Source: Microthyrium microscopicum (taxonomy: Eukaryota > Ascomycota > Dothideomycetes > Microthyriales > Microthyriaceae). From it: a stretch of DNA of 64,000 bases. Position numbers and translations under genes: made by a program. Below, piece by piece: positions 15,631 through 64,000 of this stretch. The DNA is taken from positions 65,067 through 129,066 of the forward strand of contig MU004233.1 in the NCBI GenBank assembly GCA_010405405.1. Reading direction: 5' to 3'. Below the pieces are notes generated by a model. It saw nothing but the letters and a program-made list of their open reading frames with translations, had not been told where the DNA came from and made no database searches. The number at the start of each line of letters is the position of its first letter. Within the stretch, counting starts at the first letter, position 1.

Positions 15631-17126
15631 TCAAGAACTAGTAGTACAGTTTTGTCTCGCATAAGCTCCATAAAATGCTGCAGCAGTTCTTTGGCTATAG
15701 GGAAGATTGTTGACGGTAACATTAGAAGCCCAGCATGTACTCATGTAACCGGTATAGAACACAAAACTGAGGCAATCGGAATGAGGCAGACAGCCTTGCG
15801 TGTAACACTCCTCGGCGGTGTCGACTTCAATGGTGACGATAGTATTAGCAGCTGGAGGACTGTCCGTGCCACCTCTGGATAGAAAATAAGGAGAGCAGGC
15901 TGATGAAGATGCGGATGCGGTGGAGCTTGTAGACGTCGCTGGTAGTAAGCTGGTTGACGATACAATGGCGCTGCTTGATGAGGGCACTGGTATGCATGAC
16001 CGGTCATAGAAGGAATATGGGCTTCCTGCAACTGCAACGAAGTTTCCAGTAACTGGAGCCGCGTACAGCAGGCAGGCACCTCCAGCCGCGAAGCTGCGAC
16101 ATGCACTATTGGCTAGACAGATGGCTGAGCAGGATGTGAAGTTGGAGTTTGCCAGTGTGTCATCGTAGAAAAACGCTTGTGGAGTTCCAGAGTCGTACCC
16201 GGGGGATCCACAGACTGCTGGTGCGGACAATGAAGTAGTAGGAGCACTGGATGTTGACGACGCCTGCTGCACTAAAACCGATGATGACTGCTGAAGTGAG
16301 GTTGACGGGGACAGCTGTACTGAGCTTGATGATGACTGCTGTCTTGAGCTTGTTGACGGCACTTGTGGTCCTGATGATGACTTTGTCGTTGGTGGCGCCG
16401 ATGATGTTGAAAGTACTGTTGCTTGAGAAGAGAACACAGATGTAGTTGACTTTGTCTGTGGCACTGATATTGAGGAAGATGATGTAACTTTAACGAGCGT
16501 GCTGCTTGCTGTTGATGTTGCTGCGATTGATTGCTTTGCTGAGGTGGAAGAGGATGATGCCGATATACACGCTTTGTCATAAAAGACATACGGGCTGCTT
16601 GTAATTTTGTTGACATTGCTTGCTCTAGTATCAAATTAGATTGGTTCTCCATGACTATTTGCATTCAACGGGTCGACAAAATAAATGGCGAGCCCCCAGC
16701 GAGTGTGATGTGTACCGCCGCACCTTATGAAGATCATACTCTCTAACTCGCATCGTATCCAATATTCCACTGTTATTTCTTCTTGTTCGAAAGGAAATAA
16801 AGCAGTTTATAGAAGAACGTAGCGGATGGGAGGCAACGAAGCTGATGGGAGCGTGCCATTTATTTTGTGCTTTGGATGGCATGCTGATTTGACTCTTACA
16901 CTGAGGTTGAATAGAGCAAGCAGGTACTGGATCCAACAGCAAAAGATTTACAGCTCGCATCATTCTGACATTGACCACTGCACCCAGCATAAGTCGCAAT
17001 GGAGGACTTGGTGCTAGAATAATATGCCGAAACACCTTTGTCATAACCGTTGACTCCACAAGATATGGATTGGGAAGAGACCAGTGTTGTTGAAAGAAAA
17101 ATAGCGAGCGAAATCGATGAAAACAT
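15631..17126 (-). CDS. Secreted apple/PAN-domain protein, Ser/Thr-rich
   Basis: Two exons, 17126-16900 and 16624-15631, give 406 residues. The start ATG opens a clear signal peptide (MFSSISLAIFLSTTLVSSQ). Two cysteine-patterned apple-type modules follow. The first runs from SISCGVNGYDKG through CSGQC, CKSFAVG and CLLYSTS to FYDKAC; the second from CGSPGYDSGTPQ through CSAICLANSACRSFAAGGACLLY to FYDRSC. Long Ser/Thr/Gln-rich linkers, probably O-glycosylated, separate them. A C-terminal cysteine-containing segment (EECYTQGCLPHSDCLSFVFY) resembles a third, divergent module. Apple/PAN folds bind protein or carbohydrate, so a cell-wall or host-surface role is an inference. The 275 bp intron is long for this genome and is an introner-like repeat. 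No GPI-anchor signal is evident. Confidence 0.8.
16625..16899 (-). repeat. Introner-like element, copy A (intron of apple-domain gene)
   Basis: The whole intron between GTAAGAGTC (donor at 16899) and ATACTAG (acceptor at 16625). On the sense strand the donor region reads GTAAGAGTC, then CATCCAAAGCACAAAATAAA. Two 16-mers follow, CCATCAGCTTCGTTGC (16848-16833) and CCATCCGCTACGTTCT (16829-16814), separated by three bases. This is the arrangement seen in the dienelactone hydrolase and FAD oxidase introns. The palindromes are more degenerate here than in the copies near 33 kb. Confidence 0.6.
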
Positions 17127-17980
17127 CGTGAAGAGATGGTTGTGTCGGAAAGAAACGACGAGATTACGAAGCTCGTCGGCGTAGTGGAAAAAAATGCAGG
17201 AAAGTTGAAGATTTTCGTTCATAGAGAGTGACCAGGAGTTGCTCAAGACTTCTTTATGAGTTTGTAATATTGTAGATAGGCTGCAAAAAGGCTGCAATTC
17301 TTCCCGTATCTTTGTGCGCCCACAGACGGCCAAACTGAAAATTCAACCCAAAGTTCAGCTGGGCGGCATAAGGAGAGTTACACATTATTCCTACCGCACT
17401 GACAATTTGTGCGAAGGCGGGTGTATTTACCAACCAAAACGTACGAAGCGAACGAGGCGTCGAATAACCTTGCTTTGCCAAGTTGGATACCCCATACTCC
17501 GTAGCCTCATCGTGGTTGTGGCAGTTGTTCCTGGAAATAGGAGAAGCTGGTAATCAACCAGTCGTTGCCTTTAGTCTTTAAGGGATATTGATATTCTACA
17601 GCATATTCATATTCTTTGGTGAGGCCAAAATATCTCATGCTCATGGTCATAATAAGATATAAGAAGTACTTGGTATGCAGTCAAGCATTGGTGAAACCGA
17701 GGATAAGCTTTCTGATAAGCTTTATGTATGCTGGCTGGCTGAGAATGAGATCAATCCTGACTTGTCCCAGGTCATCAAGTACTGCATGGCAGTGGTGCAT
17801 GCATGGCTGGGAGACTCTGGCGCGGTCAAAAATAAGCCAGAACATTCTTAACGAGCGTTTGATGTTTGCGATCTGAGCCGAATGCTAAGACAAAAGGATT
17901 GCTAATCTGCGCAGCTCCAGGAGGAAGACAATTGCAAGTCGTGAGATTCATAGACTTTCATTCCTCGCAAAATCTCTCAA
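17127..17980. other. Intergenic, no gene recognised
   Basis: About 850 bp of normal composition between the start of the apple-domain gene and the stop codon of the next minus-strand gene. Frames here are short and motif-free. It presumably contains the apple-gene promoter and the 3' leader of the neighbouring membrane-protein gene. Confidence 0.5.
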
Positions 17981-20002: not shown

Positions 20003-22465
20003 ATGCAAACCGACGAGTACCTGCCCATTCGGCAGGCTGGAACTCCAGAGTATCAACCATACACCGCTGCTCCTCCGGCCTACAAACCACCATGCAGCTG
20101 CCCTGACTGCGACTCCTACTGGTACACATATCAAGAGCAACACACTGACAGATATTGTTACGTCGACCAAGTCACGAACGCACAAGCTCAAAAGATTATC
20201 AGCACACATATTGAACAGATCAAAGCTGATCGACAAACTCTTGTAGATCGCTGCGCCCTTCATGGTGACCGCATTATTACTCGTTGGAAGAAAAAGAGCA
20301 GAGACCAAAGAGCATCCTGCTTAATTCAGGCGGAACCCGATCTTTATCCTCAACAGTGGTTCTTGCCCAGGTATACAAACACCGATCCGCATTGGAAAGA
20401 AGTCCGACAATATCATAGATTCCACATGCTGCTCCCCTACTTGAGTGTTGAGCTTCTCAAAAGTTCCCCCATGGTTTTGTTTGGTCTTCTTCACAATCGG
20501 ACCGCATTTGACCCAGAAAGATGGATACCATTTGATAGCCGAGAATTGAAAACAGCATGGGCAGGTGGGTTTCTAGATGTCGATTTCAATCCATCCTGTG
20601 TTGTCATGCATGGTCAAGAACTTGGGAACTTGATACCCTGGCAGGCAAATATAGTCCATCGAGCCGATGCTATTGGATTTCCACGAGCTCGTTTGATCTT
20701 CGAAGCACAAGCACGACTTCTCAGACTGTTGTGCCGAATCACAGATTTGATCTTGGATGGAGTCAAGCCTGATGCACCAGCTGCCTGTCTGAAATGGACT
20801 GAGATGACAGGGCAAGGTTTTAAACAACCAGGAGATATCGCCTTCTGGTCACAATATACCAACCAGGCTTTCTCAAAGCCACCCGACTTTAAAATTGAAG
20901 TTCTGCTCTCTAAAGCAAAAGCAAGAACCGACGCTTTGGCTGATCACTTTTGGCTACTACAAACAGATGTACCTTATATGCGTCGCTACGTTAAACAAAT
21001 ATCTGAAGCTTCTGTTATCAAGAATTCTAGGAGACAACCTGGGACAGAGGCTTCGGAAATAGTTGCAGTTGAGATTTGCTACGATCTCAGCGTATATTGG
21101 TTTTGGCGAACCATCAATGACGAGCTGGAGCATATTCAAAGTTGCCGGAACAGATTTAGAGATCATATCAATCCAGGAGAAGCATTGCCACCCAAGTACG
21201 ACGAAGCTCTAGGAACGATTGAACTGTTGCTAGTCAATGCTATGCGTAAGCGATCAAGGCATCTTCAAGCAATCGTACCCCAAAGGCCTGGTTTTGCCCA
21301 GTATTATCAACATTCTCCTTCCAACGAGGAGGGTGTGCTCACCTATCGACGAACACGTAAAACAAAGATCACTGATCTGTTCAATGAAGACCCACTGGAA
21401 TGGGCACTTATACAGCTTCAGGGTGAGCCGGACGCGGCTCTGCGATTCGATCATGCCATGTTGTTCAACTTTCTCGATAATCATCTTGTGGACTGCTCTG
21501 CCAAAGATCGAGCAAGGTTGGATCAAATTCTGTTCCAAAAGCTGTCTGATTATGCTGCAATTCATGAAATGCTCATTGCAGTACGTCTTCATCGACCCCA
21601 AAATACCAATTTGGAGCTCGACGCCATCTTGCCATATGATCACAGAGAACAATATGGCTTCGGACCTAAGACGGAACTTAAGCTTGGACGAAAGGATTTT
21701 GCGATTCTAGGTGTTGCACTTCAAGAGTTTTTAGACACACCTGCGCCTACCGGCACGAAAGATCGGAACTGGCTCCAACAATCTGATCTCACCAACGACA
21801 GAATGATCAAGTTCTGGGTCATGGTCCGTCTAGTGTACGAAAATCAAATCAGCACTCTAGGATTATCGCCCGAACGCATGTTAGACGTCTTGGGTGCCTG
21901 TGATGGTCCAGAAAATGCGGAAGAAATCAAGTTGCAGCGAGATGCAGTGATGAAAGTCATTGTTCAGACCGAAGAGTCATCAGAGTACCCACAGCAATCA
22001 TCTCAAAACATTCCGGATAACCAAAAGAAATCTGTTCAACAAAGTCAGAATTTCAAGACCAAGGCAAAAACTCGTGGAGAACCAACAAGTCAATCACAAT
22101 TCACAGAAGAAAGTAATGATTCAGGAGACGAGAAAGTCGTGCCAACATTACTTGTAAAGTCTCGCTTTTTGCCTATATTCACGGGCATGTATCCATTGAC
22201 TGGAGAAGAAGGCACCAAGACTGTGGATTGGGATTCCTTTGTTCAAGCACTTGGTGACGTTGGCTTCTCCTCAAGCAACAGTGGTGGGTCTGCTGTGGTT
22301 TTTGAGGGAGGAAAGAATGCGCAGGGAGAACAGGCAGGTGGAAGAATCATTGTTCATAAACCTCATCCTGTGAGCAAAATCGATCCGATTATGCTCCGTT
22401 CATTAGGCAAAAGGTTCGGGAAATGGTTTGGATGGCAGCGAGCTGTCTTTGGCGCCGAAAAATAA
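20003..22465 (+). CDS. Ascomycete protein of unknown function, 820 aa
   Basis: Long uninterrupted frame with ATG at 20003. The N-terminus is Pro/Tyr-rich with a CSCPDCDSYWY cysteine motif. Residues around 90-110 carry RIITRWKKKSRDQRASCL, which I recognise from a large family of ascomycete proteins of unknown function (sometimes labelled 'ipa' or CLR5-related). The middle is mainly helical. A polar Gln/Ser linker (about residues 655-715) precedes a compact C-terminal domain: VDWDSFVQALGDVGF, a Gly/Ser turn, then RIIVHKPHPVSKIDPIMLRS. That last part resembles the HicA-like double-stranded-RNA-binding fold. No signal peptide or membrane segment is present. Function and location are unknown; the family match is from memory. 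Confidence 0.7.
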   Translation: MQTDEYLPIRQAGTPEYQPYTAAPPAYKPPCSCPDCDSYWYTYQEQHTDRYCYVDQVTNAQAQKIISTHIEQIKADRQTLVDRCALHGDRIITRWKKKSRDQRASCLIQAEPDLYPQQWFLPRYTNTDPHWKEVRQYHRFHMLLPYLSVELLKSSPMVLFGLLHNRTAFDPERWIPFDSRELKTAWAGGFLDVDFNPSCVVMHGQELGNLIPWQANIVHRADAIGFPRARLIFEAQARLLRLLCRITDLILDGVKPDAPAACLKWTEMTGQGFKQPGDIAFWSQYTNQAFSKPPDFKIEVLLSKAKARTDALADHFWLLQTDVPYMRRYVKQISEASVIKNSRRQPGTEASEIVAVEICYDLSVYWFWRTINDELEHIQSCRNRFRDHINPGEALPPKYDEALGTIELLLVNAMRKRSRHLQAIVPQRPGFAQYYQHSPSNEEGVLTYRRTRKTKITDLFNEDPLEWALIQLQGEPDAALRFDHAMLFNFLDNHLVDCSAKDRARLDQILFQKLSDYAAIHEMLIAVRLHRPQNTNLELDAILPYDHREQYGFGPKTELKLGRKDFAILGVALQEFLDTPAPTGTKDRNWLQQSDLTNDRMIKFWVMVRLVYENQISTLGLSPERMLDVLGACDGPENAEEIKLQRDAVMKVIVQTEESSEYPQQSSQNIPDNQKKSVQQSQNFKTKAKTRGEPTSQSQFTEESNDSGDEKVVPTLLVKSRFLPIFTGMYPLTGEEGTKTVDWDSFVQALGDVGFSSSNSGGSAVVFEGGKNAQGEQAGGRIIVHKPHPVSKIDPIMLRSLGKRFGKWFGWQRAVFGAEK

Positions 22466-25174: not shown

Positions 25175-27140
25175 CTATGTGATATAAAGCTTCCCATCGT
25201 CTTTTCTCGTGAACACTTCCGAGCCAACGCATGGATAACACCACAACGTGTTATTTGGGTCATACTTTTGCTTGATTTTCAAAAGTCGAGGGTAGTTTGA
25301 GCCCCAAAACGTCTTCTGCCAATCGGGTTCTAAATAACTTGCCTACTTGAAGTCAGATATTGATCAGGATGCCGGTCACAGAGGCTGAGAAGCTTACCTC
25401 ATTCAGATATGCTGCAGACTGGACCGAAAATTTGTCAAGCATTGAAATATCTGCTTGTGTAGCGACATAACTTTGCAACACTTGACGATTCGTTGTGAAC
25501 TTTGACTGGTTCAATGGGAGAATCGACATGTGTACAATTGCATCTCGCCAGGCTGGATTCAATCCAGTACTCTCTTTACTCTTTTCCACCGCTCCTCCTG
25601 CGATGTTGAAAGGTTCGAGGACATGACCATTAGCAAAGAGTTCCCCAAGTACTTTTGCCATGCCATCAACATCCTGAAGACCTTTGCGGCCCAAAAGTCT
25701 AGAAGCCATAATACCAGCATCTCCTTCTGTTATTTCCGTTAATCCATCATTCAAAGCCAAATTCAAGGATATCAGTAAGGTATTCAAAGCGTCTGGAACC
25801 GGGTAGCTTGTGACCTTCAAGCCCATTGCAGTCAAATTCTTGCCATACGGATCCAGAAATTTGTTCATTTCGTCCATCGTCTTTCCAGGGGCACTGAGCA
25901 GGGTCCGAAATATATTGCTGTACATGAGAGGATATCCGCTGATTCCATAATCGCACCACTCCGGCATGACGCTGAGTAAATAGGCCATGCCTTTCAAGTA
26001 TCCAGCATTTCCAGAGCTTCCAGGAGTGACAGAAATTTTGATTCCGTTCAGCGTTGTAGGGTCGTGAGTCTTCATGGTAACCTTCGTTACGATTCCCCAA
26101 GTACCACCACCTCCACCACGTAAGGCCCAGAACAGATCAGGGTGGCTGTTCTTGTTGGCAATTGCAACTTCTCCAGTGGGGAGCACGACTTCGAATTCCA
26201 GTACGTTATCGACTCCTAGGCCTTTGTAATTGCTGAAAAAGCCATGTCCTCCTCCTTGAAGCCAGCCACCTGCTGCACCGACGCTCTTTCAGTTGTTAGA
26301 TCTTGATCATATATTAACTCGGTTGTTCTTACCCCACTTGTGCCTCCGGTAACAATCTTCTTTTGCGTGTATGCAGCGGAATACAAGTCCTTCCATTGTA
26401 TACCACCACCGTAAATTACCACACTCTGTGCCGTTGTATTCTCAAAAATGTTATTTGATTTATCCAATCTTTGCGACTGAGTAGTAGCGGTCGGGGTCCA
26501 GTCGTTTGACCATTTTATTCCCTTCAGATTATGTACCCATATCCCCAGACTGCCATAGCCTAAGTTTCTACCAAGAGATCAGTATGAAAGGTTCTTGTTT
26601 TGACAATGAGTTTGACTCACTTGCCGAGGAAATCATGGCCGGTGTTCTTGATGCTGATCCTTAGATTCCATTTGTTTGCAAATTTGACAGCAGCAACGAC
26701 ATCAGATACTGACATTGCCTTGACGACATAGGTCGGATAGTTGCCAAGCGAGCAAGTCACTGCCGCGTATTTGGATGGACAGTCAAGACACCCGAATCCT
26801 CCCCACCAACCCGATTTCACCAGCCATGGATCATTATCGAAATCTTTGGTCCGTAGCCCACATCCCAAGACACCTCCTTTGGCTTGTGTCTCATACTTGC
26901 CCGTGTTGGACAGAACTGGCGTCAAAAGTTTCCCATTAATAGTTTTATTGAAAACAAGCCAGTCATCACTCTTCGGATAGGATTCGTCTCCTGGATACTG
27001 AATTGCGATCAGCGTGATAGTAGAATATTTCGGGAATGTATACGTACTGTCTTGGCCAGCTTCTGAGCAACCGCTGTCGAGCTCGAGGAAGATAGCAAGG
27101 CACAAACAGCAATTATGCTGGTACCGATATGCCATCGCAT
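25175..27140 (-). CDS. Secreted FAD-linked oxidase, BBE type
   Basis: Exon 1 (27140-27048) encodes a signal peptide (MRWHIGTSIIAVCALLSS). Later exons give a PCMH-type FAD domain with NTGHDFLGKNLGYGSL, whose histidine is the usual site of covalent flavin attachment, and with SVGAAGGWLQGGGHGFF and LFWALRGGGGGTWGIVT. The last exon (25342-25175) gives the berberine-bridge C-terminal block ASYLEPDWQKTFWGSNYP then KYDPNNTLWCYPCVGSE. Introns predicted include 26998-27047, about 26564-26615, about 26289-26336 and 25343-25397; all read in frame. There is no second-loop cysteine, so the flavin is probably held by histidine alone. It resembles fungal isoamyl-alcohol-oxidase-like and AA7-like enzymes; substrate unknown. 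It lies tail to tail with the sugar transporter. Confidence 0.85.
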
Positions 27141-31396: not shown

Positions 31397-33069
31397 TCAG
31401 TGAGCTTGAAGCCAACCAAGCATCTGTCCAAATGCTAGCTGTTGAGCTTCCTTGATCTTTGAATCCTCGTAATCACCCAATACTGCAAAGCCGTGGGGAA
31501 CTTCAGGATATACCTTGACCTCATGTTCAATCTCGGCTTTTTCGAGTGCCTCAACACCAGCTATGCGCACCTCATCTGGGAACAGTGGATCGTTTTCCAC
31601 GCAAACCAGAATAGTCGGGACTTTAAGCTTGCTGATATCCTCAGGGGCAATTTGTGTGCCGTGAGCGATGGCGCCAACCTTGATCACCGGACCGCTCGTC
31701 GCAGCGGCTTGCGATTCCTCATCGTCTTTTGGTGCTGCGCTTTGTGGTGTAGCATTTCCGCCTTCACCGCCAAGTAAGAGAACGTATCGCGCGCCAAAGC
31801 AGTAACCCACAGCATATATGCCACCTCCATTGGCAACAGCGTCTGCGAATTCTTCCTTGGCGCCTTCGATGACTTTGTGCAGGATGGGCAAGACCTTCTC
31901 TGGCGTGTGTCTGGCAAGCCACATATCTATCATGAAGGCTTTGGCTGTGTCGGCTACACCCATTTTGATACGCTCTAGTAAAGATAGCTCTGCGCCGGCA
32001 TCAGTGACACTGTTCCCAGTTGCCGTATCGCCTCCAAACCTAGAATTCCTATCAGAACCATTGTAAATATATGATTAGAGTTTCGACTCACTGATCTGGC
32101 ATGATGACCAAAAAGCCTTCCGAAGCAAACTTGTCTGCTTGTAACTGATTGTTTGCGGATTTTAGACCAGTACCTGGATTGATTAGTATGCATTGTATGG
32201 TTTGGGTCCCTCATAAGTTGGGAACCAAAAGCGGATTTTCATACCTCCTGTCAAAAGCAGAAGCAATTTGGACGGAGAATGCGGATAGTCAGCCGGCTTC
32301 GCGATGTACACCTTGTATGGTCAACTTGGAACTTTCGAAATGTATGACATGGGACAATGGAACGTTCATACATCGACGTCTCCAAGCTTCGTAAGCTCCT
32401 AGTTTGCGAGTCAATGTAAAGAGCTTTGCAAAACTCATGAAAGCTTACTCCCGTTGGCACCTCACCAGCAGCTATATCAGTTAGCATTGCAGAGTGTAAT
32501 AGTTTGGGTGGCATGTTTTACGTGAAGGTCTATCCGTTGTACAGTGCTCACCCATTGTTGGCCCAGTTTGAGCAACAGAGTCTCCTAGAAATTCTTAGAT
32601 CAAGATTGCGAATAAAGCTAACACGCGCTGAAAAGACCAAAATGGTCTGGTCAGGATCAACAAATAGAATAATCGCATAATCCATCGCATTCGACGGCAT
32701 CCATAGCATTCGATTAGAAACGCCTTATGGGAGCCATCGAATGCGATGTGGGACACATTGATTTTGTGTTCATTGGATGTCGTCAAGAAATGCTGTTTGA
32801 CACGGCGGAATCTTACCTGCAAATTGTCAATATACGATTACGACTAGACCTGACATGCTGGAAAGATCACTTAGGCTTTTCGTGCCGAAACCGTTAAACA
32901 CCCATTGCATTCGATGGTAGCCATCGAGTGCGATGGGAGACAAGATTACTTTGGTCCATAGCATGTCATCAAGAAATATAACTTAGCATGGAGGAATCTG
33001 ACCTTGAAATGGGGAGTCTTCAACAGCGTCACTTTCGGGAGCCTTGGTGGCAAGCTCTGGGTCGGACAT
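31397..33069 (-). CDS. Dienelactone hydrolase family protein
   Basis: Exons read on the minus strand from ATG at 33069 (MSDPELATKAPESDAVED), through small exons giving AAGEVPTGELTKLGDVDVYI and LLLLTGGTGLKSANNQLQ, to the large last exon from about 32040 to 31397. Catalytic features of the family are present: GGIYAVGYCFGARYV (nucleophile Cys in GYCFG), ENDPLFPDE (acid) and PEVPHGFAVLG (His). Such enzymes hydrolyse lactone or ester bonds, and the fungal versions are cytosolic with broad substrates. The first intron (32585-33002, 418 bp) is built of two tandem introner-like repeats meeting at CAG|GTAAG with nothing between them. Other introns are of the usual 45-75 bp. It is transcribed convergently with the AA9 gene. 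Confidence 0.85.
32585..32816 (-). repeat. Introner-like element, copy B2 (second half of tandem intron)
   Basis: A 232 bp unit from donor GTAAGATTCCGCCGTG (32816) to GAATTTCTAG (32585). It shares with copy B1 the donor block and the internal CATTTCTTGACGACATCC. Plus-strand palindromes are CCATCGCATTCGACGG (32682-32697), CCATAGCATTCGATTA (32701-32716) and CCATCGAATGCGATGT (32734-32749). The 22 bases from CCATAGCA to AAACGC also appear, inverted and nearly identical, in the intron at 62.8 kb. Confidence 0.75.
32817..33002 (-). repeat. Introner-like element, copy B1 (first half of tandem intron)
   Basis: A 186 bp unit from donor GTCAGATTCCTCC (33002) to GACAATTTGCAG (32817). It contains TATTTCTTGATGACATGC and the best-preserved palindrome pair. 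On the plus strand these are CCATTGCATTCGATGG at 32902-32917 and CCATCGAGTGCGATGG at 32921-32936, 19 bp apart start to start. Both ends are recognisable splice sites, so the unit equals a complete intron. Confidence 0.75.
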
Positions 33070-33337
33070 GATTGTAAAGTTACGACCGGTTACAGTGAGG
33101 CACTGCGATAATTCAAAGTTGATATTCGAAGATGAAAGTGAAGGTTATGTAACTAATGGTGAGCATCTGCATTCGTAGACCAAACGCCTGGATGACATCA
33201 AATAGATAAGCGCGCGGCAGCTTCTTCATGCACGCCGCATTTATATATGCGCGGGCCCGGGCGGCTGCACTTTTCACATCAGGCATCTCGCGACCACCAG
33301 CGTTGAAGCATACACCTCATTCATTGCCGGCTATTCG

Positions 33338-42133: not shown

Positions 42134-44073
42134 CGTGGAATGGAGTGGCCTCTGGCCCGGCAACAGGATTAAGACGACAGGGCGCGCGACGGGAAGTTGT
42201 TGGATGAGCGATTGAAAAACTCACACTTCAGTTGAAGGCGAAAAATCACTGGTGAGAATGTAATATGAGGGTAACACGATAGTAGTAGTGGTGCGGTAAG
42301 CGGGCGGTAGGATCAATCAATTGGTAGGGGAGTGGAAGTTTTGATGTTGGATGATTGGGGTTTGGTTTGTTTACAATTTTGGGTCAGGGATTTGTAAACA
42401 ACCAGGAGCTTGGGCCATTCAACCGGGCCAGCGAGTCGCTCCTTCCTCCATCAACCAACCCCTGTCAGCCAATCATTCTCAGCCTCATGACGTTGAATTT
42501 TCGACGACTCCAACCAGACACGACAGTGCAGTCCAGACAACCTCGAGTTTGAGGCATTCGTCCCACCATGTGCTGTTCATGGCCAGCATATAAGACAACA
42601 TCCAGTACTATTCTACTGCCTATACAGTGAATATTGGCTTACCATCTCCGGGCGATTAGGGAACCCGGCTCTCCAAGAACAAAATAAACGAGCACTTTCA
42701 TCATCGAATACGTTGGTGATTGAAGAAGTCACTCTTTGATAAGTGTTATGACAGCTATCGTAATCGGTGTCAATAGTCGTCGGTAAAACTTAATAGTTTT
42801 TGTCCCCGAAGAACTAAGACACTGGAACAGCATTGGTACTAATCATCGGTCATGAAAATAATCTGTTTCGGATTGTTTTCACTCGCTCCTATTCTTTATA
42901 CCGTACTCTATCATCAAATACCTTTTCTACTATTGAGTACTTTAGATATAGCTACAAGATATTGGATATGACAGAAGTTGAAGAGTATGCTCTTTAGAAG
43001 GTGCAGTAGTAGACAAGCTGATATGGAAGTCGATGGAATCGTGACAATCTTTCTGTCGAGTGTCGACTCTTTGGCAGTACTATCACTTGTCTAGGTACGC
43101 ATGGGAAATTTTTGATCCGGCAAACCTTACGATATGTACGGTAACCAATATCAAGGCAATTCGAATTCAGCTCGCGACCCGTCCGTTGATACCCCTACAC
43201 GCCAATCTCTGAGCTGGCAACACTAAAACACACCACTTTAAGCAAATCCGCATCTACCTTCCTCAAAGGTCCAAATGATGATGATACATCAACTTGTGCT
43301 TCAAGAAATCGCCCCCCACAATCCAGCGAGATAATTCGGGTCCCCTCTTTCTAGCCAGAGCAGCTAACATTACCCCTCATCTCCAACTCGCACCATCTAT
43401 CCTGCATCCGGCGCAAAACAGACCATACTATCTTGTAAATCCACTCCCGGCACCGGGATGATAGCTCAAGAGATGAACGTTATCCAATGGGCTATACCAG
43501 GAGTAGACAGTCCAACCGGAGCCAGGAAGGCGGAAGCGCGGGTGATTCGTCTTGTACGACTGAGATCAACTCCAAGCTGCAAGCACGGGGAAAACAATCA
43601 CGCAGCAGAGGGATGAATCTGGACCAGAAGGGGAAAATTTGATAGTGGTTTTGTGCAGAATGTTGATGCACGTCGGGTGCTGTATACAGTATGCATATTT
43701 GATATGCTGAAGCACATTGGAGATTGAGCTTAGGCCTTCTCTTTATGGAGCATCGGGTAGGTTATCAGCCCAGTGAACGTTGCGAGATTAGTGGAAACTG
43801 GGGTATGGGGGTCAGATCTGTCTGGACTCTGCACCGCTCGTTTGGTTGTCAAATGTTAAATCGTGGGAGGCGTTATGGAAGGGTCCAAAATCACTCCGTC
43901 ATGAGGGGCCAAAAAGTCAATGGGAATAGGATTGGATTCTGTTGAGCTACTGCTGTTATTTCACTACATTCCACGGCGTTTGTTCTATAGGCTGCCGAAC
44001 ATATTTATATATTCTACCGGACCTGTCCTCATTTTATGCTGAATTGCTCAAACGCGATTGCGGAGGTATCACA
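42134..44073. other. Divergent intergenic region, about 1.9 kb
   Basis: This is one of the longest non-coding stretches outside the RIP islands. It separates the divergent coiled-coil and copper amine oxidase genes. No frame has a recognisable motif; the 73-codon frame at 43724 is not supported. C/T-rich strings around 42420-42480 and 43190-43440 look like fungal promoter or leader sequence. No tRNA or other structured RNA was identified. Confidence 0.5.
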
Positions 44074-46513: not shown

Positions 46514-47203
46514 GAGGCTTGGAGGTGTAGAGAGGGATAGAGAAAGATTGTTTCGTGATATGACTGATGATTTATGCTTACGACTGGGGACGAGAAATGA
46601 TGGACTAATTTAACTATCAGCTATAATGCATTTTTTAATGCGAGAGGATTGGCTCTGGTGGATCGGTTGACTGTACAATTCTTTTATCTACCTAGTCCAT
46701 CAAGCCCATTAAATTTGTTTGCCTGGACAACTTACTGGGCAACAAGTCGGCAAAATATGGCGCACCCCCATCAGGTTCGCCGACTCCAGACGCTCCGCTC
46801 TTGTATTGAGTTCTTCATTTGCCGTGAAGGACGCTTAGATTCGAATGAGTTATCGAATACGACGGGAAATATAGCACCTATTGCTTAAGGCCGTTGGTGG
46901 CAGCTATCAGAGTAGATGGGAGAGCGCCATTCGTTTTGTCACGTCGTTGACTGAGAATTTTCTGTTTTTCCTCTAATATGAGCTGCTGCTAACGAGAATT
47001 CACAGCCGCAAAAATGTTCGATTAGCCTTGAAGGTCAGCCTTATCAACTCAGGCATTGACCAATCACAACTGACAAGGCTGAAAGTGGGCAGGGGTTCTT
47101 TTCACGTGACTGCGCGGTTCTCCTTCGCGAACTTAGACGCGTTACCTTTTCCAACTTCAAGATCATTTCACTGAATGCCAAACTCCGTTTCCCACCCAAC
47201 ACT
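46514..47203. other. Intergenic with a relic of the introner-like family
   Basis: About 690 bp between the amine oxidase and MSH2. Near 46885-46965 the minus strand reads GTGACAAAACGAATGGCGCT followed by CCATCTACTCTGATAG, three bases, then CCACCAACGGCCTTAA. This has the block order and 19 bp spacing of the introner-like elements, without obvious flanking exons. No gene is recognised in the stretch. The MSH2 promoter should lie in its right half. Confidence 0.45.
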
Positions 47204-50059
47204 ATGTCGTCAAGACCGGAATTGAAGGTCGATGATGAGCTAGGCTTCATCAAAGCTTTCAAAGGACTTCCTACCCTTGAAGAAGGAACGATCCGCTTAT
47301 TCGACCGCAGCGATTACTACACTGCGCATGGCGAGAACGCCGTGTTCATAGCGAAATCAGTGAGTGTAACTTCTAATGGAGGCAAGCTAGCATAGTCGCT
47401 GATAAATGACAGGTCTATAAAAGCACGTCTGTGCCTCGTCAACTTGGTCGCAATCCTGGCCTCGATTCAGTCACACTTTCCAACACAGTCTTCAAAAGCT
47501 TCCTTAGAGACGCTCTCTTCAGACTGGGCAAACGGATTGAGATATGGGAGAACTCTGGTCGCGGAAATTGGAAGCTTGCGAAACAAGCAACCCCTGGAAA
47601 CTTACAGGACATTGAGGATCAATTAGGGGAAAACATCGGCGAGCAAGCACCAATTATACTTGCAGTCAAGATCAGCGCCAAAGCGTCAGAGGTCCGACAA
47701 GTCGGCGTTTGCTTTGCAGACGCAACTGTCCGCGAGCTAGGCATCTCAGAGTTTTCGGACAACGAGCTGTACAGCAACTTCGAGTCACTTCTCATCCAGC
47801 TTGGTGTTCGGGAATGCATTGTTCAGGCAGATACGAACAACAAAGATGTTGAGTTGAAGAAGATCCGCTCAATTGTGGATAATTGCGGCTGCGCTATCAC
47901 AGTTCGATCTTCTGGGGACTTTGTTGATAGAGATGTTGAGGAGGATCTCACCAGACTCCTCAAGGATGAGAGTGCCCCAGGACGATTACCACAGACTGAC
48001 CTGAAGCTGGCCATGAGTTCTGCCGCTGCATTGATCAAATACCTTGGTCTCATGTCACAACAATCGAACTTTGGACAGTATGCGCTATATCAGCATGACC
48101 TTGCACAATACATGAAGCTGGATGCTGCAGCTTTACGCGCCCTCAATCTCATGCCAGGACCTCGAGATGGCTCCAAAACCATGAGCTTGTTTGGTCTCCT
48201 TAACCATTGCAAGACACCTATGGGCCCACGCTTACTGGCACAATGGCTCAAGCAACCATTGATGTCACTGGATGCCATCGAAAAACGACAACGGCTTGTC
48301 GAGGCGTTCGTTGAAGATACCGAGCTTCGGCAGACCATGCAGGAAGAGCATCTGCGATCAATGCCGGACTTGTTCAGGCTGACGAAGAAGTTCCAACGTA
48401 ACAAAGCTGGCTTGGAGGATGTCATCCGAGCATACCAAGCAGCATCAAAACTCTCCGGTTTTCTCGGAACATTTGAAGGTGTTATGGATGAGAAATACAA
48501 GGACCATTTGACGGCAGAATATATAACGAAACTGGAAGAATGCAACAATAGCCTTGGCAAGCTTCAAGAAATGGTTGAGACAACCATCGATCTTGATGCT
48601 CTTGATGCTCACGAATATATCATCAAATCCGAGTTCGACGAGCGATTAAAGGTGATCAGAAAGAAGCTTGATCGTGCCAAGGGTGAAATGGAGGAGGAAC
48701 ATCGCCGGGTGTCTGAAGATCTTAATCAAGACATGGAGAAGAAGTTGTTCCTGGAGAACCAAAGAGTTCATGGATGGTGTTTTCGGCTGACTCGTGCTGA
48801 AGCTGGCGCTATAAGAAACAAGAAGGATTACAAGGAGATTACTACTCAGAAGAACGGCGTCTATTTTACCACCAACAACATGCAAGATCTTCGACGGGAG
48901 CATGATCAACTTTCAGAGAACTACAACAGAACACAAAGTGGACTAGCATCAGAAGTTGTAACTGTTGCAGGTATGTCATTAAGCTCTCTTCTTCTCACTC
49001 ATCGACTAACATAAAGCAGGATCATATTGTCCTGTTCTAGAAAAGCTCGCTGGCGTCCTCGCTCATCTTGATGTCATAATCTCTTTCGCACACGTTTCAG
49101 CACACGCGCCAACGCCATACGTAAAGCCAAAGATGCACGCCCGCGGCACTGGTAACACCATCCTCCGCGAAGCCCGCCATCCATGTATGGAGATGCAGGA
49201 CGACGTCAACTTTATCACGAACGACGTAACTCTCGAGCGTGGATCCTCCGAATTTGCCATCATCACTGGCCCCAACATGGGCGGCAAGTCCACTTATATC
49301 CGCCAAATTGGTGTCATCGCCCTAATGGCCCAAACCGGCTGTTTCGTACCCTGCAGTGAAGCCGAGCTGTGCATATTCGACTGTATCCTCGCCCGTGTAG
49401 GCGCCAGTGACAGCCAGCTCAAGGGCGTATCAACATTTATGTCTGAGATGCTTGAGACTGCCAACATCCTTAAATGCGCGACTCGCGAATCCCTAATCAT
49501 TATTGACGAGTTAGGTCGCGGGACTAGCACATATGATGGCTTTGGACTGGCATGGGCAATCGCAGAGCATATCGTAAAAGAAATTGGCGCCTTTGCGCTG
49601 TTCGCTACGCATTTCCACGAGCTGACTGCACTGGCTGATCAATGGCCACAAGTCGCCAACTTACATGTCGTGGCGCACGTGGATGGCGATGACCGCCCAG
49701 GGGGCCAGCGCCAAGTGACGCTTCTCTACAAAGTCGAGCCAGGTGTCTGCGATCAGAGCTTCGGTATCCACGTTGCAGAATTAGTACGCTTCCCAGAGAA
49801 GGTGGTCAACATGGCTAAGCGCAAGGCCGATGAGCTTGAAGATTTCGAGGGCAAGCACGAGCAGGGAATGGAGTCTATTGCACCGGCGGATGTGGAGAAG
49901 GGCAGTGAGCTCTTGAAAGAGGTGCTAGTCAAGTGGAAGGAAGCCACGGAGGGAAAGGATATGTCGACTGAGGAGCAAATTTCGAAGATGCGGGAGTTGG
50001 TGGATGGTAATCAAGCGTTGCTTGACAGTCCTTTCTTCAAGGGCGTGCTGGCGTTGTAA
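47204..50059 (+). CDS. msh2: DNA mismatch repair protein Msh2 (MutS homologue)
   Basis: Three exons (47204-47359, 47413-48970, 49020-50059) give 917 residues, close to the 930-960 of other Msh2 proteins. The N-terminal mismatch-recognition domain begins [18 protein letters not shown]. The connector, lever and clamp regions follow, including [12 protein letters not shown] before the last intron. The ATPase domain has Walker [14 protein letters not shown], the signature [14 protein letters not shown], Walker [17 protein letters not shown] and the switch histidine in [13 protein letters not shown]. The C-terminal helix-turn-helix dimerisation part ends in ALL-rich sequence. In the nucleus Msh2 pairs with Msh6 or Msh3 to recognise mismatches and small loops and recruits Mlh1-Pms1. 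All key motifs are intact, so the gene looks functional. Confidence 0.97.
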
Positions 50060-50981: not shown

Positions 50982-51701
50982 ATGAATCACTACGATTTCA
51001 ACGATCAGCATTACTGCAACCCCCTACATCACCACTCCAACATAGCTTGCCCACCTCCCTACCAGCAACCTAAAGTAATGCGAGTCGAACACAAGCCAAG
51101 TCTCGCTCTCCCAGCTTCCCACCATACCAGCAATAGAGGGTTTTACAGCCCGGCATCAGACGATACGTTCTTTACCGCCCCACTCGTTCCCGCCCAAGAC
51201 ATCGTTTCTCGCCCATCGCCTGCGATGGGCCCCAGAAGAGGCGATGGGGAAATCGCACATTTGCCAAGAGGACGATCCGCGAGACGAAGTGCGTTTCCGG
51301 GACGTGGAATTCGGCTGGGAAAGCATGTTTCTGAGAGGAAAAGAGATGACATGCCGTATGTTTCGATCGTTCCCAGCCTTTTGGAATTTTGCTCAAACTC
51401 CCATCGCATTCGATGGTTCCCATCGTATCTGTTAATTATCACCGTCGATGGGCGCCATCGCATCTGATGGGAAATTTGCGTTTTTTGCTGCCCATCCGTT
51501 TCCCTTTGAAATTCACTGTTCTGATGGTGCTAATGCGATAAATCTGCAGGCCAGCCAAGATCAAAATGCACATATATCTCATCAAGATGGAACTCCGATG
51601 GCTCAAATTCCAGAACAAACATCCCATTCTACGAAGTCAACGACGGATGGATTCGCGAGCTGGACGAATTCGACGGAAAATGGATCGATTGTTTGCCATG
51701 A
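50982..51701 (+). CDS. Hypothetical small protein interrupted by an introner-like intron
   Basis: Unrecognised. A frame from ATG 50982 (MNHYDFNDQHYCNPLHHH) is rich in His, Pro and Ser and runs past 51240. The neighbouring +1 frame carries acidic, protein-like sequence (EDDPRDEVRFRDVEFGWES to GKEMTC). That frame splices cleanly at 51356/51549 to an exon reading RQPRSKCTYISSRWNSDGSN then PFYEVNDGWIRELDEFDGKW and a stop at 51701. The two frames overlap around 51213-51240, exactly where a CCATCGCCTGCGATGG palindrome sits. Possibly an insertion shifted the frame, or a further small intron lies there; an independent start at 51244 is also possible. The exon layout is uncertain. Confidence 0.35.
51356..51549 (+). 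repeat. Introner-like element, copy D
   Basis: Predicted 194 bp intron with donor GTATGTTTCG and end AAATCTGCAG. It has perfect or near-perfect palindromes CCATCGCATTCGATGG (51401-51416) followed after three bases by CCATCGTATCTGTTAA (51420-51435). A second pair follows: a degenerate unit ending CGTCGATGG at 51451 and CCATCGCATCTGATGG (51455-51470). A lone copy, CCATCGCCTGCGATGG, lies upstream at 51213-51228. Confidence 0.6.
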
Positions 51702-51792
51702 CAAAGTGATTGATGGGTCCGAGTCGCTGTTTCTTGAAATGGCCGAGCTAGTCTTTGGGAAGGAGGGTTTTGGGAAGAGAAGAGTGTGGTGA

Positions 51793-54969: not shown

Positions 54970-57900
54970 ATGTCCCAATCAACTCACACCCCTGCTCCCC
55001 TGCCCTCAACTACACCTTCCACTGCTCACACCCGACCAAGACCATACTCTCTCTTCTCACCAGGCACTTTCGACTATTCTCCAACTCCTCAAGCAGTCAC
55101 TCCATCCCCTTCGCCTGCTGTCCTTCAGGATCGCGATCCCAACATCTCTGGAGTCTCCTCTGCCCTCAAGCTTCTTCGCAAACCAGCCCCAGGTCTGCTG
55201 AAGCGTCTGAAGGCATTGGATACACGAACAAAACGTCGCAAATCCCTCCCCGAACCTGACGTTGGTCGCATCCCCGAAGAACAGATTCGCGAACTCGACA
55301 GCCTCCAAAAGTTACGGAACGAAATCACAATCCAGCGGCGCGGCCGGCCGTGGACTCCGCCAAGGTCGTCGCTGCCTGATTCTGAAAACCCTATGGCTCT
55401 ATCAGGACCTCAACAGCTTGGGTTGGGGGACTCCTTCCAGAGTTCGGTTATGGCTGCATTGGCTGATCATGATGATCATGAAGCCAGTGACTTGTCTTCA
55501 GTCATCAGTACTAGTGATCATCCTGTCCTCTCCGAATCGGACGCAAGCGAAGAGATTCTGGATACTCAGAAATATCATCTTCCAGACATGGGTATGGCTC
55601 TCTCGCGTCATCTGATGGCCATTGATGGATGGACAGAATGTATGGCACAACCCCTCGAGGAACTTGACTATCATAGACCTTCATAAGAGGAGTGTGCTTT
55701 TTCTCCATGGCATGCGATGAGTCTTTGATTTGTCAACGCATTCTATGGTGAAACAGGCACCCCATCAAGCCAAGTAAACTGGAAACAGAAGAGTCACAGG
55801 GTCCCGCTATATATTTTGTCCATTCGTCTTGCGCCAGCAAAGTGCACAATACTGATCGCAAAATGCTAACTACAATAGGCAAATCTCGTGGCTCTTCACG
55901 CGCTGGATTCATTCTAGAGGATGGAAGAGCTGTTGAGCGCGATAGACCGCCGTCTCCACCCCCTAAAGATCCTCAATACATACCGAACCGCCCAATCTCC
56001 ATGTCTACGGAATCCCTCAATGGAGATCGCGAGGATCCATATTTCAATCCATACGGACTGCAAAGAACGGGTTCCATATACACACTTTCAAGAGCCTCGC
56101 TTTCGAATCAGCTTCAACAGCTCACCTCTATCAAACTTCCAGATTCCTCTTCGCTGGAATCGAGTATTGCATCAATTCCAACTTCTGTCGCTGCTGCCAA
56201 GGTCCTTAACGATGCCGCCCATCAGATACGGATTTGGATCAAAAAGGCAAATGAGGTCTTGGAAACGTTGGACGCCGAGGACGATGTTGAGTGGGCCGCT
56301 GCAGCTGGTCGAGAAGGACTCGGCGAAGTGGACACTGCTATAAATGTCTTTGAGCGACTCATAATTGTCTTTGTTAATGCTATCGAAAACCTCGAATCGA
56401 GACCGGATATTCAAAGCATACCAACTTCTGATCAGACGGCAATTGTTGATCGTATGGAAAAGATACTGGAAGATTGGGAAAAGATAAAATCGTCACTGAA
56501 CAAGACGAAGGAACAGGTTGAAATCGCCATGGAATTTGAAGAGCTCTGGAATACTGTTCTGGGCGAAATTGGAATGGAACAAGACAAACTCAGCCGTTTA
56601 ATCTTTGAGATGGAAGAGAGACGCCACAAAAACAGTCTACTCGATGCAATGGCAGAACCTGGTCAAGGCTTGGATATCAAGGAACTCGAAACTATTGTTG
56701 AGGAGGCACCTGGTCGGGCTATGGATGCTCGTGCAGGAGCCAGCAAGATCAGTCTCGTCGTAGGCTTTGAAGATGCTGAATCTGCAGTACCACAGGAAGC
56801 TCCAAGTCAAGAAGTCTCCAACCTTTTGGCGTTAACAGCTCGTATGCAGCCTCTACGCGCATCGCTTGATTTCTTGCCAATGCGCCTGGCTGGTTTCCTA
56901 CATCGCGGAAAGGATCTCTTCCCCTCGGCGTGTGAGGAGCTTGACAGTCGTATGCAGACATTAGAAGCCAGATTCAAGAAACTACAGGGCGATGCTGAAG
57001 CTTTGCGAAAAGAACTTGGCGAGGATCGATGGGTTTTGATTTTCCGAAAAGCCGGTCGACAAGCACTTAAGATGTGCGAATCTGTCGAAAGAAGTGTCGC
57101 CAAATTGCGCGAGTCCTTAGACGAAGGAATACATCACACCAACCCCCCAGCTTTGACCAAGAAAATCGAAAACTACGAGGCCAAGCGAGAACACTACGGC
57201 CCTGCTATCCAGCAAGTTTTGGCTATCATAGATCGTGGTGTTTCATCGCGTTTGACTGTCAATGGCGAGATTTTGAGACTACAAGCAGACATGCAGCGTC
57301 GGTGGGCGGATATCGAAGGTCTTATGAAGAGCATGGATTTTGCACTTGATCAGTTGAACATTTCGCGGCATCGGCAACTACGAGATTCGGTATCAACGGT
57401 TCTTTCCGAGCAACGCTCAATCGCAAGCAGCACTGGTACACTGGTTGATACCCCTGGTAGTTCACCTGCATCTTCGATCGTTCTTCTCAACCATCGGAGG
57501 GCCAGCGATAACGGTTCAACGACCCCTTTCAGTTCCAAGTCAAGACAAAGTAGTTTCACGAGCAACACAACCGCACGAGGAAAGCGAATGTCAAGTCTCC
57601 CAACCCCAAACAATGCTGGTGGTGCAAGAAAGATCCCATTGGGAAAAGCCAGTGCATCGAACCTTCGCTCAGGTGTCATTGGCGCTTCGTCGCGATTGTA
57701 TCCGCCTCCAACTCCAAGAAGTGTATCAAGACAAGAAGTTATCGAGGAGCGACCGTCAAATAAGCCCAGATGGAACTCGTCCACAAACACGCATGACACT
57801 GCAATAGGACATAACTTTAAACCTCTCTCTGCCACAACTCCATCACCTTATCGCAAAGGTATGCCAGCTCTTCGATCGCCTCGCAGCTTCTCACACTCGA

Positions 57901-60293: not shown

Positions 60294-60838
60294 TTTTGGA
60301 GTTGTTTTCCTGAATGGTTCTGAGTGGTGGTTGTAGGAGAGGAAGAGGGAGAGAGAGCGGTGGTGATGTCTGGAGTTGGCTTGGTGGTGGTGGAGGGCTC
60401 GGGTGTGGCAAGGATTATTTTCGGCCCACAATCGCTTGCTTTGTGCAGTGCTTAGAAATCAATAAGACCCCAGTCCGTTTTATTGGCGATTATCAAGCAC
60501 CTGCCTGTTTTTAATTGCCCTAAAATTGCTTTCATTCTTATTTTGCCCGAAAGCTCAATTATTTCAATCGCGCTACTGAGCTTACTCAGCCACGTATCTT
60601 TTGAACATTGGCAACAAGCAGTTAAGATCAATTCTTATGCAGACGAACCGCAGTATCTTCACTTTTCACACATACATAATTTGGTCACATGGCAACTGCA
60701 AACCGGAGACGTCGAGCACATTGAAAGTTTTCATTGCTATCATTGTCTACAAGAGCAGAAGTCGGTGAAAGAGTTCATCCGACGGCCTAATGATCCTTCC
60801 ATCACCAATTTTGTGACGCTTGGAAAGAACACAGACAT
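60294..60838. other. Intergenic between two ribosomal protein genes
   Basis: About 545 bp lying upstream of RPL10 and downstream of RPL30, both on the minus strand. A pyrimidine-rich leader (minus strand, 60300-60400) precedes the RPL10 ATG, as is common for ribosomal protein genes. A plus-strand frame at 60483-60959 is antisense to the end of RPL30 and is not called. Confidence 0.55.
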
Positions 60839-61508: not shown

Positions 61509-62172
61509 CGTTGCGCTTCAGCTGTAGTATTTTGCTGACGTGAATTGTTGCGCTCCGGTCGGATGTTGTTGGTTGAAAGTTGATGGAGAGTTCTTCACAA
61601 AATTTAGTGTGTGTAGTGGGCGCGAAGTCTTGGCATCGCGGCTCCACATTTCTAAGCGCGCGGCTCTGCCCAACGACAACTCAACTCCAATGTTTTATCC
61701 GAGTCCATTTTGACCATCTGCAAAGGTAAATTTCGCATGTACGAAGATCTGGAGATCGGGTAACTTTGTGGAACGAATACAACAGCAAGTTGTCAAAGAT
61801 TTGGCCCTTTTGCGGAGCGCCAAACCATCGACAAAACGACCAGCGTGCTCAGCTGCTCCCATGCTATATCTTTGATCCAGTGCTTTATTTCCCAAAGACA
61901 GTCATAAATTCTTGACCGTTCAGCGAGTACGCTGGCAATCAAAGTAAACTGTGATGAGAGACACCACAGTCGATGGGAGCGCATCGCTTATTGTGTCAAC
62001 CCATTGATACGCCAACTTGTCTTGTCCCCTATTCGCCAACTTGATCCTTCAATCCCACGAGTGCATCCTCATCCCTCAACCTTGTCGCAACTGCCTTGAT
62101 ATTAACCCCTAGCATCTGCCGATGCCTTCAAAGAAATGCCTCCAGGTTGAATGACCCGGCTCTTATATCACC
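61509..62172. other. Divergent promoter region with an introner-like relic
   Basis: About 660 bp between the divergent eL30 and FAD oxidase genes. On the minus strand, 62005-61942 reads GACACAATAAGCGATGCGCT, then CCATCGACTGTGGTGT, three bases, and TCATCACAGTTTACTT. This matches the A-rich block and the 16+3+16 layout of the introner-like family. In that orientation it lies 5' of the RPL30 ATG, so it could be a leader intron. No protein-coding gene is seen. Confidence 0.45.
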
Positions 62173-64000
62173 ATGTGGTTCCTTATCCGTGTAGCTCTGG
62201 CGGTAGTGACGAGCTTTGTCTCACTATCTTATGGTTCTCAAAGCGTCCTGTCTGCAGGAGATCATCATATTCCTCAAGCAGTAAGCACATAATCTCCAAC
62301 AGGAACCCTGCGCAGGTATATTAACAAGCCAGTGTAACGCCATTGAACTGGCCATCAATGGCGATGTCTACCACCGCCGTACATCCGAGTACAATGACCA
62401 GCAAAAGGATTACTGGCTACTGCAACAAGCAAAGGACTATTCGCCTCATTGCCGCGTCACTCCTCGGGATGCCAAGGATGTCAGCATTGCTCTGAAGCTT
62501 TTTGGCAAACATCAGACTCCATTTGCTGTCAAGAGCGGTGGCCATAGCTTTCTCTCCGGGGCTTCCAATATCAACAATGGCATTACGCTCGACCTATCGC
62601 GCCTAAATTCAATCAAGCTATCAGAAGACAAGCAAAGCGTTCGGCTGGGTCCCGGCGCTACCTGGAAGGAAGTCTACCAGGTCCTTGAACCACTTGGTCT
62701 CACAGCACTTGGTAAGATTTCCCCATTTGGCATCTGAAATGTCTTGACAACATTCGATAAACGGGAAAAACGTCGTTTCATCATCGGAATCAATGGTAGC
62801 GTTTCTAATCGAGTGCTATGGTTCCCACTGAGTACGATGAGCCCTCCATGGTTTCACCCCGAAAAGATATGATGGTTGTCTCGGGCGTGTTTGCTCTCAC
62901 TGTAATAAAATACTGACAATGCCAGGTGCGCGAGCCGGTAGCGTGGGCGTAGGAGGATTCATTCTCGGTGGAGGATCAACATGGCTCTCGAATCGCCATG
63001 GATGGGCAGTAGACTCAGTACTGGAGTTTGAAGTCGTTGTCTACGGCAAGATCAAAACTGCATCAAGCACAGAGAACCCCGACCTATTCTGGGCTCTCAA
63101 AGGAGGCGGCAGCAACTTTGGCATCGTTACTGCCATCGCAATGGCCACTCATCCCCTTGGCGATCTTTATGTCTATGGTCAAAGCTGTCCCCAAGAATCA
63201 GTACCGCAAGGCCTTAAGGCGCTACAAAGCTTCACTGACGCCGGCTCAAACGATACTGGCTCTAGTGCAATAATGGGCGTCATGTTCACTCCGGGCCAGG
63301 AAGAACTCGCCGCAGCCATAACAGTTGTGAATATAGACAACGACCTGAATGCTGAAGGCTTGAAGTATTTTACGGACATACCGCAGTTTCATGCTGACAA
63401 CTTTACGATCAAGTTGACTGAACTCAGTGATCAAATGAGCCAGTATGCTGATCGAGAATATCGGAAGATCAAATTCTCGATTACTGTACATAACAACGCT
63501 ACTCTTCTTGGTCATTTATTTGAGGAATTGGAGAATTTGGTCCGCGATCATGATCTTGATGATATGCTTGGTAAGTTCATTTCGTCTCAAGTGGATTCTG
63601 AGAGCATGCCAACATAAAGTTCGTGATTTACGTATGACACCTCGGCCAGTCTATTACAGCTCTGGCTCCCATTTTGCCATTCTCATGCGTAAATCAATGA
63701 CAAATTTCCGCTAACATCGTACAGCCTTGGGCACTAGCTTCCAACCACTCACCAGATCGCATATCAGCAACCGCAACAATGCTCTCGGACTCTCTCACGT
63801 CACCTCTGGTCTAATGCTAGTCTCCTTTGAAATCTACTGGTCGGACGCCGCCAACTCCACCTACTTCGAAAAGCTCTCCAGAAATTTACATGACAAGCTC
63901 TGCGCTCGGGCAAGCGAGAAGCAAATGCTGCACAGATTTACATATCTGAACTATGCGGCAAGCTGGCAGGAACCGTTCAGTGGCTATGGAACAGAGAGTT
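62173..64000 (+). CDS. Secreted FAD-linked oxidase, BBE type (partial, right edge)
   Basis: Exons 62173-62280, 62333-62711, 62926-63570 and 63725 onward, open to the window end. The first encodes a signal peptide (MWFLIRVALAVVTSFVSLS). The FAD-binding PCMH domain has AVKSGGHSFLSGASN, whose histidine normally carries covalent flavin. It also has ITLDLSRLNSIKLSEDKQSV, GGARAGSVGVGGFILGGGST and LFWALKGGGSNFGIVT. The C-terminal BBE block lies beyond the window. This type is common in fungal secondary metabolism and oligosaccharide oxidation; substrate unknown. It is not a recent duplicate of the FAD oxidase at 25-27 kb, since motifs and intron positions differ. Intron 2 is an introner-like element, and intron 3 (63571-63724) is also longer than usual. 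Confidence 0.85.
62712..62925 (+). repeat. Introner-like element, copy E (intron 2 of FAD oxidase)
   Basis: Whole intron of 214 bp. Donor GTAAGATTTCCCCATTTGGC, internal ATGTCTTGACAACATTCG and end ATACTGACAATGCCAG all have counterparts in the dienelactone hydrolase copies. Units TAATCGAGTGCTATGG (62806-62821) and CCACTGAGTACGATGA (62825-62840) are 19 bp apart. The string from GCGTTTCTAATCG to GCTATGG is the near-identical inverse of 32701-32723. Confidence 0.72.

Follow-up and report, generated by a model that had tools for sequence, protein, structure and literature searches.

Whether an intron can itself be a mobile repeat is the question raised by a 64,000-nucleotide stretch of Microthyrium microscopicum DNA (contig MU004233.1, positions 65,067 to 129,066 of the forward strand; assembly GCA_010405405.1), hereafter the window. 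A preliminary description made from the sequence alone had proposed that six long introns in five unrelated genes are copies of one introner-like element: u1 (16625-16899), u2 (32585-32816), u3 (32817-33002), u4 (45881-46042), u5 (51356-51549) and u6 (62712-62925). Our comparisons, which rest on the 64-kb window, protein libraries and literature, reduce this family to three copies, and the supported copies occupy two host genes rather than five. We consider it probable that u2, u3 and u6 all derive from a single fungal introner-like element and represent aged, strongly diverged copies in a degenerate family. In all, the evidence in the window comprises three copies, two host genes and two repeat families. 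The three copies and their hosts are as follows.

32817-33002, minus strand: u3, candidate introner-like copy of 186 nt, GTCAGATTCC...ATTGACAATTTGCAG; 5′ partner in a zero-exon pair
32585-32816, minus strand: u2, candidate introner-like copy of 232 nt, GTAAGATTCC...CTAAGAATTTCTAG; 3′ partner of the pair, abutting u3 exactly, acceptor to donor
62712-62925, plus strand: u6, candidate introner-like copy of 214 nt, GTAAGATTTC...ACTGACAATGCCAG, within a flavin adenine dinucleotide (FAD)-dependent oxidase gene
31397-33069, minus strand: host gene of u3 and u2, dienelactone hydrolase family protein, PF01738 on the last exon
62285-63614, plus strand: host gene of u6, FAD_binding_4 oxidase, modelled over part of its length

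Sequence comparison gives good support to the reading that u2, u3 and u6 are diverged copies of one intron. In single-unit nhmmer searches of the window, u2 found u3 (E 5.7e-10, 179 of 186 nt) and u6 (E 9.1e-10, 193 of 214 nt), u3 found u6 (E 1.9e-6, 206 nt) and u2 (E 1.8e-9, only 118 of 232 nt), and u6 found u2 (E 1.9e-9, 208 nt) and u3 (E 5.4e-6, 160 nt). As the palindromes in these units might alone produce such matches, a leave-one-out search was repeated with the core masked in both queries and window. The held-out copy was the top non-training match in 6 of 6 tests, at the correct position and on the correct strand, with E-values of 1.2e-5, 8.3e-5 and 0.0094 for the 5′ parts and 0.49, 1.8e-4 and 0.013 for the 3′ parts. 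Masked 5′ matches start at the donor in all three copies, and 3′ matches leave 10, 4 and 5 nt uncovered at the acceptor end; the masked profiles listed no additional match in the window at E below 0.9.

Shuffle tests with the splice consensus trimmed agree, giving p between 0.0005 and 0.028 in all six comparisons among u2, u3 and u6. Local alignment scores reach 58 for u2-u3 and 44 for u2-u6, against a maximum of 26 among 396 random window pairs, and fall to 26 and 17, respectively, on the opposite strand. The 5′ parts of u2, u3, u4 and u6 did not resemble those of five ordinary introns in any of 20 comparisons (lowest p 0.062). Inspection of the nhmmer alignment places the branch sites in register (ACTGAC in u6, ATTGAC in u3 and TCTAAG in u2), and identities of 66% for u2-u3 (123/186), 58% for u2-u6 (123/212) and 59% for u3-u6 (109/185) mark the three as old copies. 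All three lie in the sense orientation of their genes, a count based on only three copies in 64 kb that were initially chosen as introns. The introner reading is thus well supported for u2, u3 and u6, whose similarity begins at the donor and stops only 4-10 nt short of the acceptor, and which sit in unrelated hosts and share the sense orientation.

The host genes support the assignment of these units as introns. Excision of u6 joins long open frames, and the PF01565 match (E 6.1e-26, residues 54-180) crosses the join near residue 142; alignment to two solved homologues is gapless there in one case and shows a one-residue gap in the other. Excising u1 or u4 likewise merges long open frames. The hydrolase gene forms a seven-exon model open to the stop, in which u3 and u2 both lie between the first and second coding exons, and Pfam assignments place the hydrolase and the oxidase in unrelated families. 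By these sequence features, u6 and the u2-u3 pair appear to be spliceosomal introns, bounded by GT and AG and located in coding genes. The GT and AG ends described earlier were confirmed in all six segments, as was their unusual length: the units measure 162-275 nt, compared with 50, 50, 60, 71 and 52 nt for the five further introns of the hydrolase gene and 47 nt for an intron of an FAD-oxidase paralogue.

This paralogue (minus strand, 25.2-27.2 kb) lacks an intron at the site equivalent to u6; its ordinary 47-nt intron (26286-26332) lies 14 nt downstream of that site. The arrangement resembles reported introner-like elements whose positions differ by no more than 15 bp from those of regular introns in other species (PMC4457414). 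Comparison with a paralogue cannot prove that u6 was gained.

The zero-exon stack of u3 and u2 is the most unusual feature of the family. On the minus strand the order runs from exon CAAG into GTCAGATT (u3), which ends in TTTGCAG and is followed directly by GTAAGATT (u2), which ends in CTAG before exon GAGAC. The acceptor of u3 meets the donor of u2 exactly with no exon between them, so that the junctions read CAAG/GTCAG...TTTGCAG/GTAAG, and this meeting of two complete units, acceptor to donor, supports the intron itself as the moving unit. Splicing could in principle take the pair out stepwise or as a single 418-nt intron; either way the mRNA would be identical. Local tandem duplication is not favored as the source of the pair, as u2 and u6 share a stretch absent from u3 and the three identities are 66%, 58% and 59%; an old duplication may nevertheless lie at its origin. 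Among the literature matches listed we saw no obvious earlier case of stacked introners; in the portions of text available, the words "nested" and "tandem" are absent from the main text of PMC9860276, and "tandem" and "directly adjacent" from PMC12403724.

Short motifs shared by the units proved less specific than whole-unit homology. The 16-mer palindrome is enriched in the window: allowing up to 3 mismatches, it occurs 61 times where 11.28 occurrences are expected, and none of 100 shuffles reaches 61; the count covers both strands, so many sites are counted twice. Each of u2, u3 and u6 contains an exact TCTTGAYRACAT block, but another exact occurrence lies outside the units at 47204-47215 and the window has 10 matches within one mismatch, and alone this short block is not specific. 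A longer version built from u2, u3 and u6 matches only these three in the window, with 0.00 expected. This extended 5′ block had no match in viral contigs or in prokaryote genome contigs, collections that are not fungal and hence uninformative about fungi, and none of three core sequence strings occurred in the literature searched. The A-rich CACAAAATAAATGG block (up to 2 mismatches) was recovered only in u1 (twice) and u2 (once), and the intergenic relics carry looser versions of it. Predicted fold stability relative to shuffles gives z of -5.43 for u2, which forms a strong hairpin, -2.14 for u3 and -0.43 for u6. Palindromes of the CCATCG type also occur outside the proposed units, at 51205-51240 and at 55700-55750, the latter just past a predicted stop codon.

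The remaining three units either differ from this family or are marginal to it. For u1, which joins two parts of a PAN-domain protein gene by open frames and Pfam, the best reading is that an inverted-repeat element of about 215 bp, also found between genes, lies in an otherwise ordinary intron of about 57 nt. We call this second repeat family B; the features discussed below are as follows.

16625-16899, minus strand: u1, intron of the PAN-domain protein gene, best interpreted as an intron of about 57 nt plus an inserted element; outside the u2/u3/u6 family
16665-16879, strand not given: family B inverted-repeat element inside u1, about 215 bp, with approximate limits and a candidate ATG duplication flanking it
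46729-46961, strand not given: family B intergenic copy, E 1.3e-13, limits approximate
61815-62015, strand not given: family B intergenic copy upstream of the FAD gene, E 5.4e-7
42913-43059, strand not given: weak, partial family B intergenic copy, E 6.9e-6; a profile of the ends finds one end only, E 0.039
45881-46042, plus strand: u4, copper amine oxidase intron of 162 nt; possible diverged member of the u2/u3/u6 family
51399-51472, strand not given: u5 foldback of nested CCATCGnnTnCGATGG palindromes resembling the u2/u3 core

Removal of the element from u1 leaves about 57 nt, an ordinary intron size. With limits chosen by eye, inverted ends are detected at 50 nt in the u1 element (p 0.0005), in the copy at 46729-46961 (p 0.0025) and in that at 61815-62015 (p 0.03), and candidate target duplications, again by eye, are ATG at u1 and CTG at the 46.7-kb copy; none was seen at the 61.8-kb copy. 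No open reading frame of at least 110 codons overlaps the intergenic copies. The best u1 match spans positions 35-244 of that unit, and a second, opposite-strand match to the 46.7-kb copy runs from 24 to 267 (E 9.5e-10) into the outer 3′ part, which makes the limits of the u1 element approximate. The outer 20 and 40 nt of u1 matched nothing else in the window at E up to 1, and a blastn search linked 25 nt of the outer part to 22061-22085 (E 0.049). Elements of the miniature inverted-repeat transposable element (MITE) type are about 200 bp long with imperfect inverted ends. Family B is like them in being short, with such ends, and in occurring at several places, in an intron and between genes; it differs in that no transposase or superfamily was identified and target duplication is uncertain. 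Insertion of a repeat element within an ordinary intron, which the preliminary description took to be excluded, is the better reading for u1. A degenerate tandem repeat of about 24 nt at 16262-16382 encodes a serine/threonine-rich linker of the same PAN-domain protein gene.

A link between family B and the introner core is possible but unproven. Comparisons of family B copies with the units gave p below 0.05 in 7 of 40 cases, and in 3 of 24 for u2, u3 and u6; taken singly, the comparison of u1 with u2 was significant (p 0.001 and 0.007 in two tests). A profile of six family B ends, run against the six units, found only a short palindrome in u3 (E 0.36) and u2 (E 1.3) and did not list u6; the same profile gave E 0.034 for u5 and 0.05 for u4.

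That u4 is an intron of a copper amine oxidase gene is certain, as PF01179 (E 2.3e-129) crosses the join and alignment to the best solved homologue is gapless there. Its membership in the u2/u3/u6 family is marginal by sequence. The 5′ part of u4 resembles that of u2 (p 0.004, 0.013 and 0.026 in separate shuffle tests) and not those of u3 or u6, and the whole-unit local score of 27 between u4 and u6, reached by none of 200 shuffles, comes from a match in the core at 62809-62831. Run with default filters and an E cutoff of 10, a profile built without u4 failed to recover it, and masked profiles missed it. A good-looking alignment of u4 as a fourth member was dismissed because a profile that includes u4 matches u4 by construction.

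For u5, which contains a 74-bp foldback of nested palindromes, neither tested join gave a Pfam match and nearby codon scores are about 0; low-complexity PAN exons also score about 0 on codons, so the intron status of u5 is unproven rather than disproved. Core-masked searches found the outer parts of u5 unlike the other units, with only the palindromic core in common, and the introner reading is not supported for u5. The single family of six therefore divides: u2, u3 and u6 keep their similarity beyond the core, u1 and u5 show no significant similarity to them beyond palindromic or short motifs, and u4 stays at the margin.

Near-whole-unit homology, unit ends that coincide with splice sites, unrelated host genes and open frames across the joins are observed for u2, u3 and u6. 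An element that accounts for them would be a spliceosomal intron of about 185-230 nt, in which a palindromic core is flanked by the donor, branch site and acceptor that the element itself supplies, that multiplied by whole insertion in the sense orientation at G/G sites in transcribed genes. Insertion would proceed through spliced RNA, by reverse splicing into transcribed DNA as has been proposed for other introners of ascomycetes, and a second copy landing exactly on the junction of an existing one would produce the zero-exon pair. We infer copy movement, splicing and this RNA route from sequence; the route itself is suggested because the copies have neither a terminal inverted repeat in common nor a target duplication longer than G or GGT. 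In the test that reveals inverted ends in family B at 50 nt, u2 and u6 have none (p 0.057 to 0.45), and with open frames across their joins and sense orientation these two appear to fit RNA-based fungal introners.

Three other explanations compete with an introner-like element that moves as an intron. A small non-autonomous DNA transposon of foldback or MITE type, with ends that serve as splice sites as in algal introners, would explain the palindromic foldback core and would be in keeping with family B elements residing in the same window and with the 7 low p-values among 40 comparisons noted above. It also draws on the inverted match of the outer 50 nt of u3 and on GGT at both ends of u3, u4 and u6. 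At u2 there is only AGG. However, 3 of the hydrolase gene's 5 ordinary introns are also followed by GT, so that GGT does not point to a duplication and was dropped as a target duplication at introner ends. Since u2 and u6 also lack the terminal inverted repeats that family B copies display in the same test, and the profile of family B ends recovers no more than the short palindrome in u3 and u2, we judge a transposon origin unlikely. Invasion of independent ordinary introns by one foldback repeat, with the core alone shared, is a better reading of u1 and perhaps u5, and cores alone do yield strong matches; for u2, u3 and u6 it is very unlikely and largely refuted by the masked searches, which find these units related outside the core. 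A conserved intronic RNA such as a C/D small nucleolar RNA could account for long, partly conserved introns, and u3 has TGATGA in the conserved block and CTGA-like boxes near its 3′ end by eye. Neither u2 nor u6 has the C-box-like motif intact, no Rfam model matched the window at gathering score, and relaxing the cutoff to E 1 brought up just four weak microRNA-precursor matches (E 0.16-0.95), all at the hairpins in 32500-33100 with none in 62650-62990, which leaves a conserved RNA extremely improbable.

Several observations weigh against u2, u3 and u6 being introner copies. There are only three copies, 58-66% identical, with no sign of recent activity, compared with at least five copies in survey families as described in PMC12403724. 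One of six leave-one-out tests (E 0.49) is not significant by itself. The local score of u3-u6 on the same strand is 19, reached by 33 of 200 shuffles, and the opposite-strand score is 23, reached by none of 200, which we attribute to the palindrome. The outer 50 nt of u3 match inverted (p 0.0085, but 0.97 at 30 nt), a property unshared by u2 and u6, and the stable-fold trait is uneven, with only 2 of 3 copies folding better than shuffles. Pfam gives no domain support to the first coding exon of the u2/u3 host gene, so the pair could instead be untranslated 5′ sequence, with translation beginning at another candidate start codon just downstream.

This kind of element is already known, and the present family is compared with published ones by description. 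Fungal introner-like elements occur in unrelated genes, are longer than regular introns and form pairs in some genes, 145-626 bp apart (Collemare 2015, PMC4457414). The copies u2, u3 and u6 share the repetition in unrelated genes and the greater length; in contrast, they are old (58-66% identity), three were seen, and two abut without an exon. Introner-like elements are co-linear with transcription and have predicted stable folds, which the hairpin core recalls, unevenly across copies (PMC3443670), and their insertion is described as seamless (PMC8469720). Many introners resemble DNA transposons; ascomycete families stand apart in having neither inverted repeats nor target duplications (PMC9860276). 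Of the present copies, u2 and u6 resemble these families in lacking inverted repeats and, apparently, any target duplication longer than G or GGT, and all three in showing similarity that reaches near the splice boundaries. The same survey (Gozashti 2022) reports 5 to over 2,000 copies per genome (PMC9860276), and fungal introners have been interpreted as RNA-based, inserted by reverse splicing (PMC9860276, PMC8469720, PMC3443670). Sister spliceosomal twin introns (stwintrons), known from Hypoxylaceae and Xylariaceae, also multiply and show internal symmetry; each is a complex of two introns that is as a rule removed in two steps and occasionally in one (PMC8469720, PMC12403724). The u3-u2 pair is likewise a complex of two internally symmetric, presumably multiplying introns. 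In [D1,2] stwintrons the outer donor is interrupted by the inner intron, which sits between its nucleotides 1 and 2 (PMC12403724), whereas both donors of u3 and u2 are whole and the introns abut.

The window itself resembles fungal nuclear DNA, with short GT-AG introns in enzyme genes and a very AT-rich segment at 1-10000 (GC 0.14-0.27) that ends sharply near 10 kb. This segment bears a strong signature of repeat-induced point mutation, with TpA/ApT of 1.5-1.75 and (CpA+TpG)/(ApC+GpT) of 0.03-0.17, compared with 0.4-0.83 and 1.15-1.54, respectively, in the remaining 2-kb windows except that at 14-16 kb. Such a signature is typical of filamentous ascomycetes, and short introners would fall below the repeat length that the process needs. 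At 14001-16000, a local GC dip to 0.35 coincides with a number of short inverted repeats and may mark one more decayed repeat.

For introner searches, u1 (better explained as a repeat inside an ordinary intron) and u5 (intron status unproven) illustrate traps. A further speculation, which we think quite unlikely, is that the hairpin core of the introner family and the family B transposon share an origin and that copies re-insert at their own donor junction to build head-to-tail zero-exon stacks. If true, the shared core would connect ascomycete introners, so far set apart by their lack of transposon marks, with DNA elements, and re-insertion at the own donor junction would be a new route to multi-part introns. 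Introner-like elements are a main candidate for the bulk origin of new introns, and copies stacked at a splice junction record insertion sites and bear on whether insertion reads the splice site itself.

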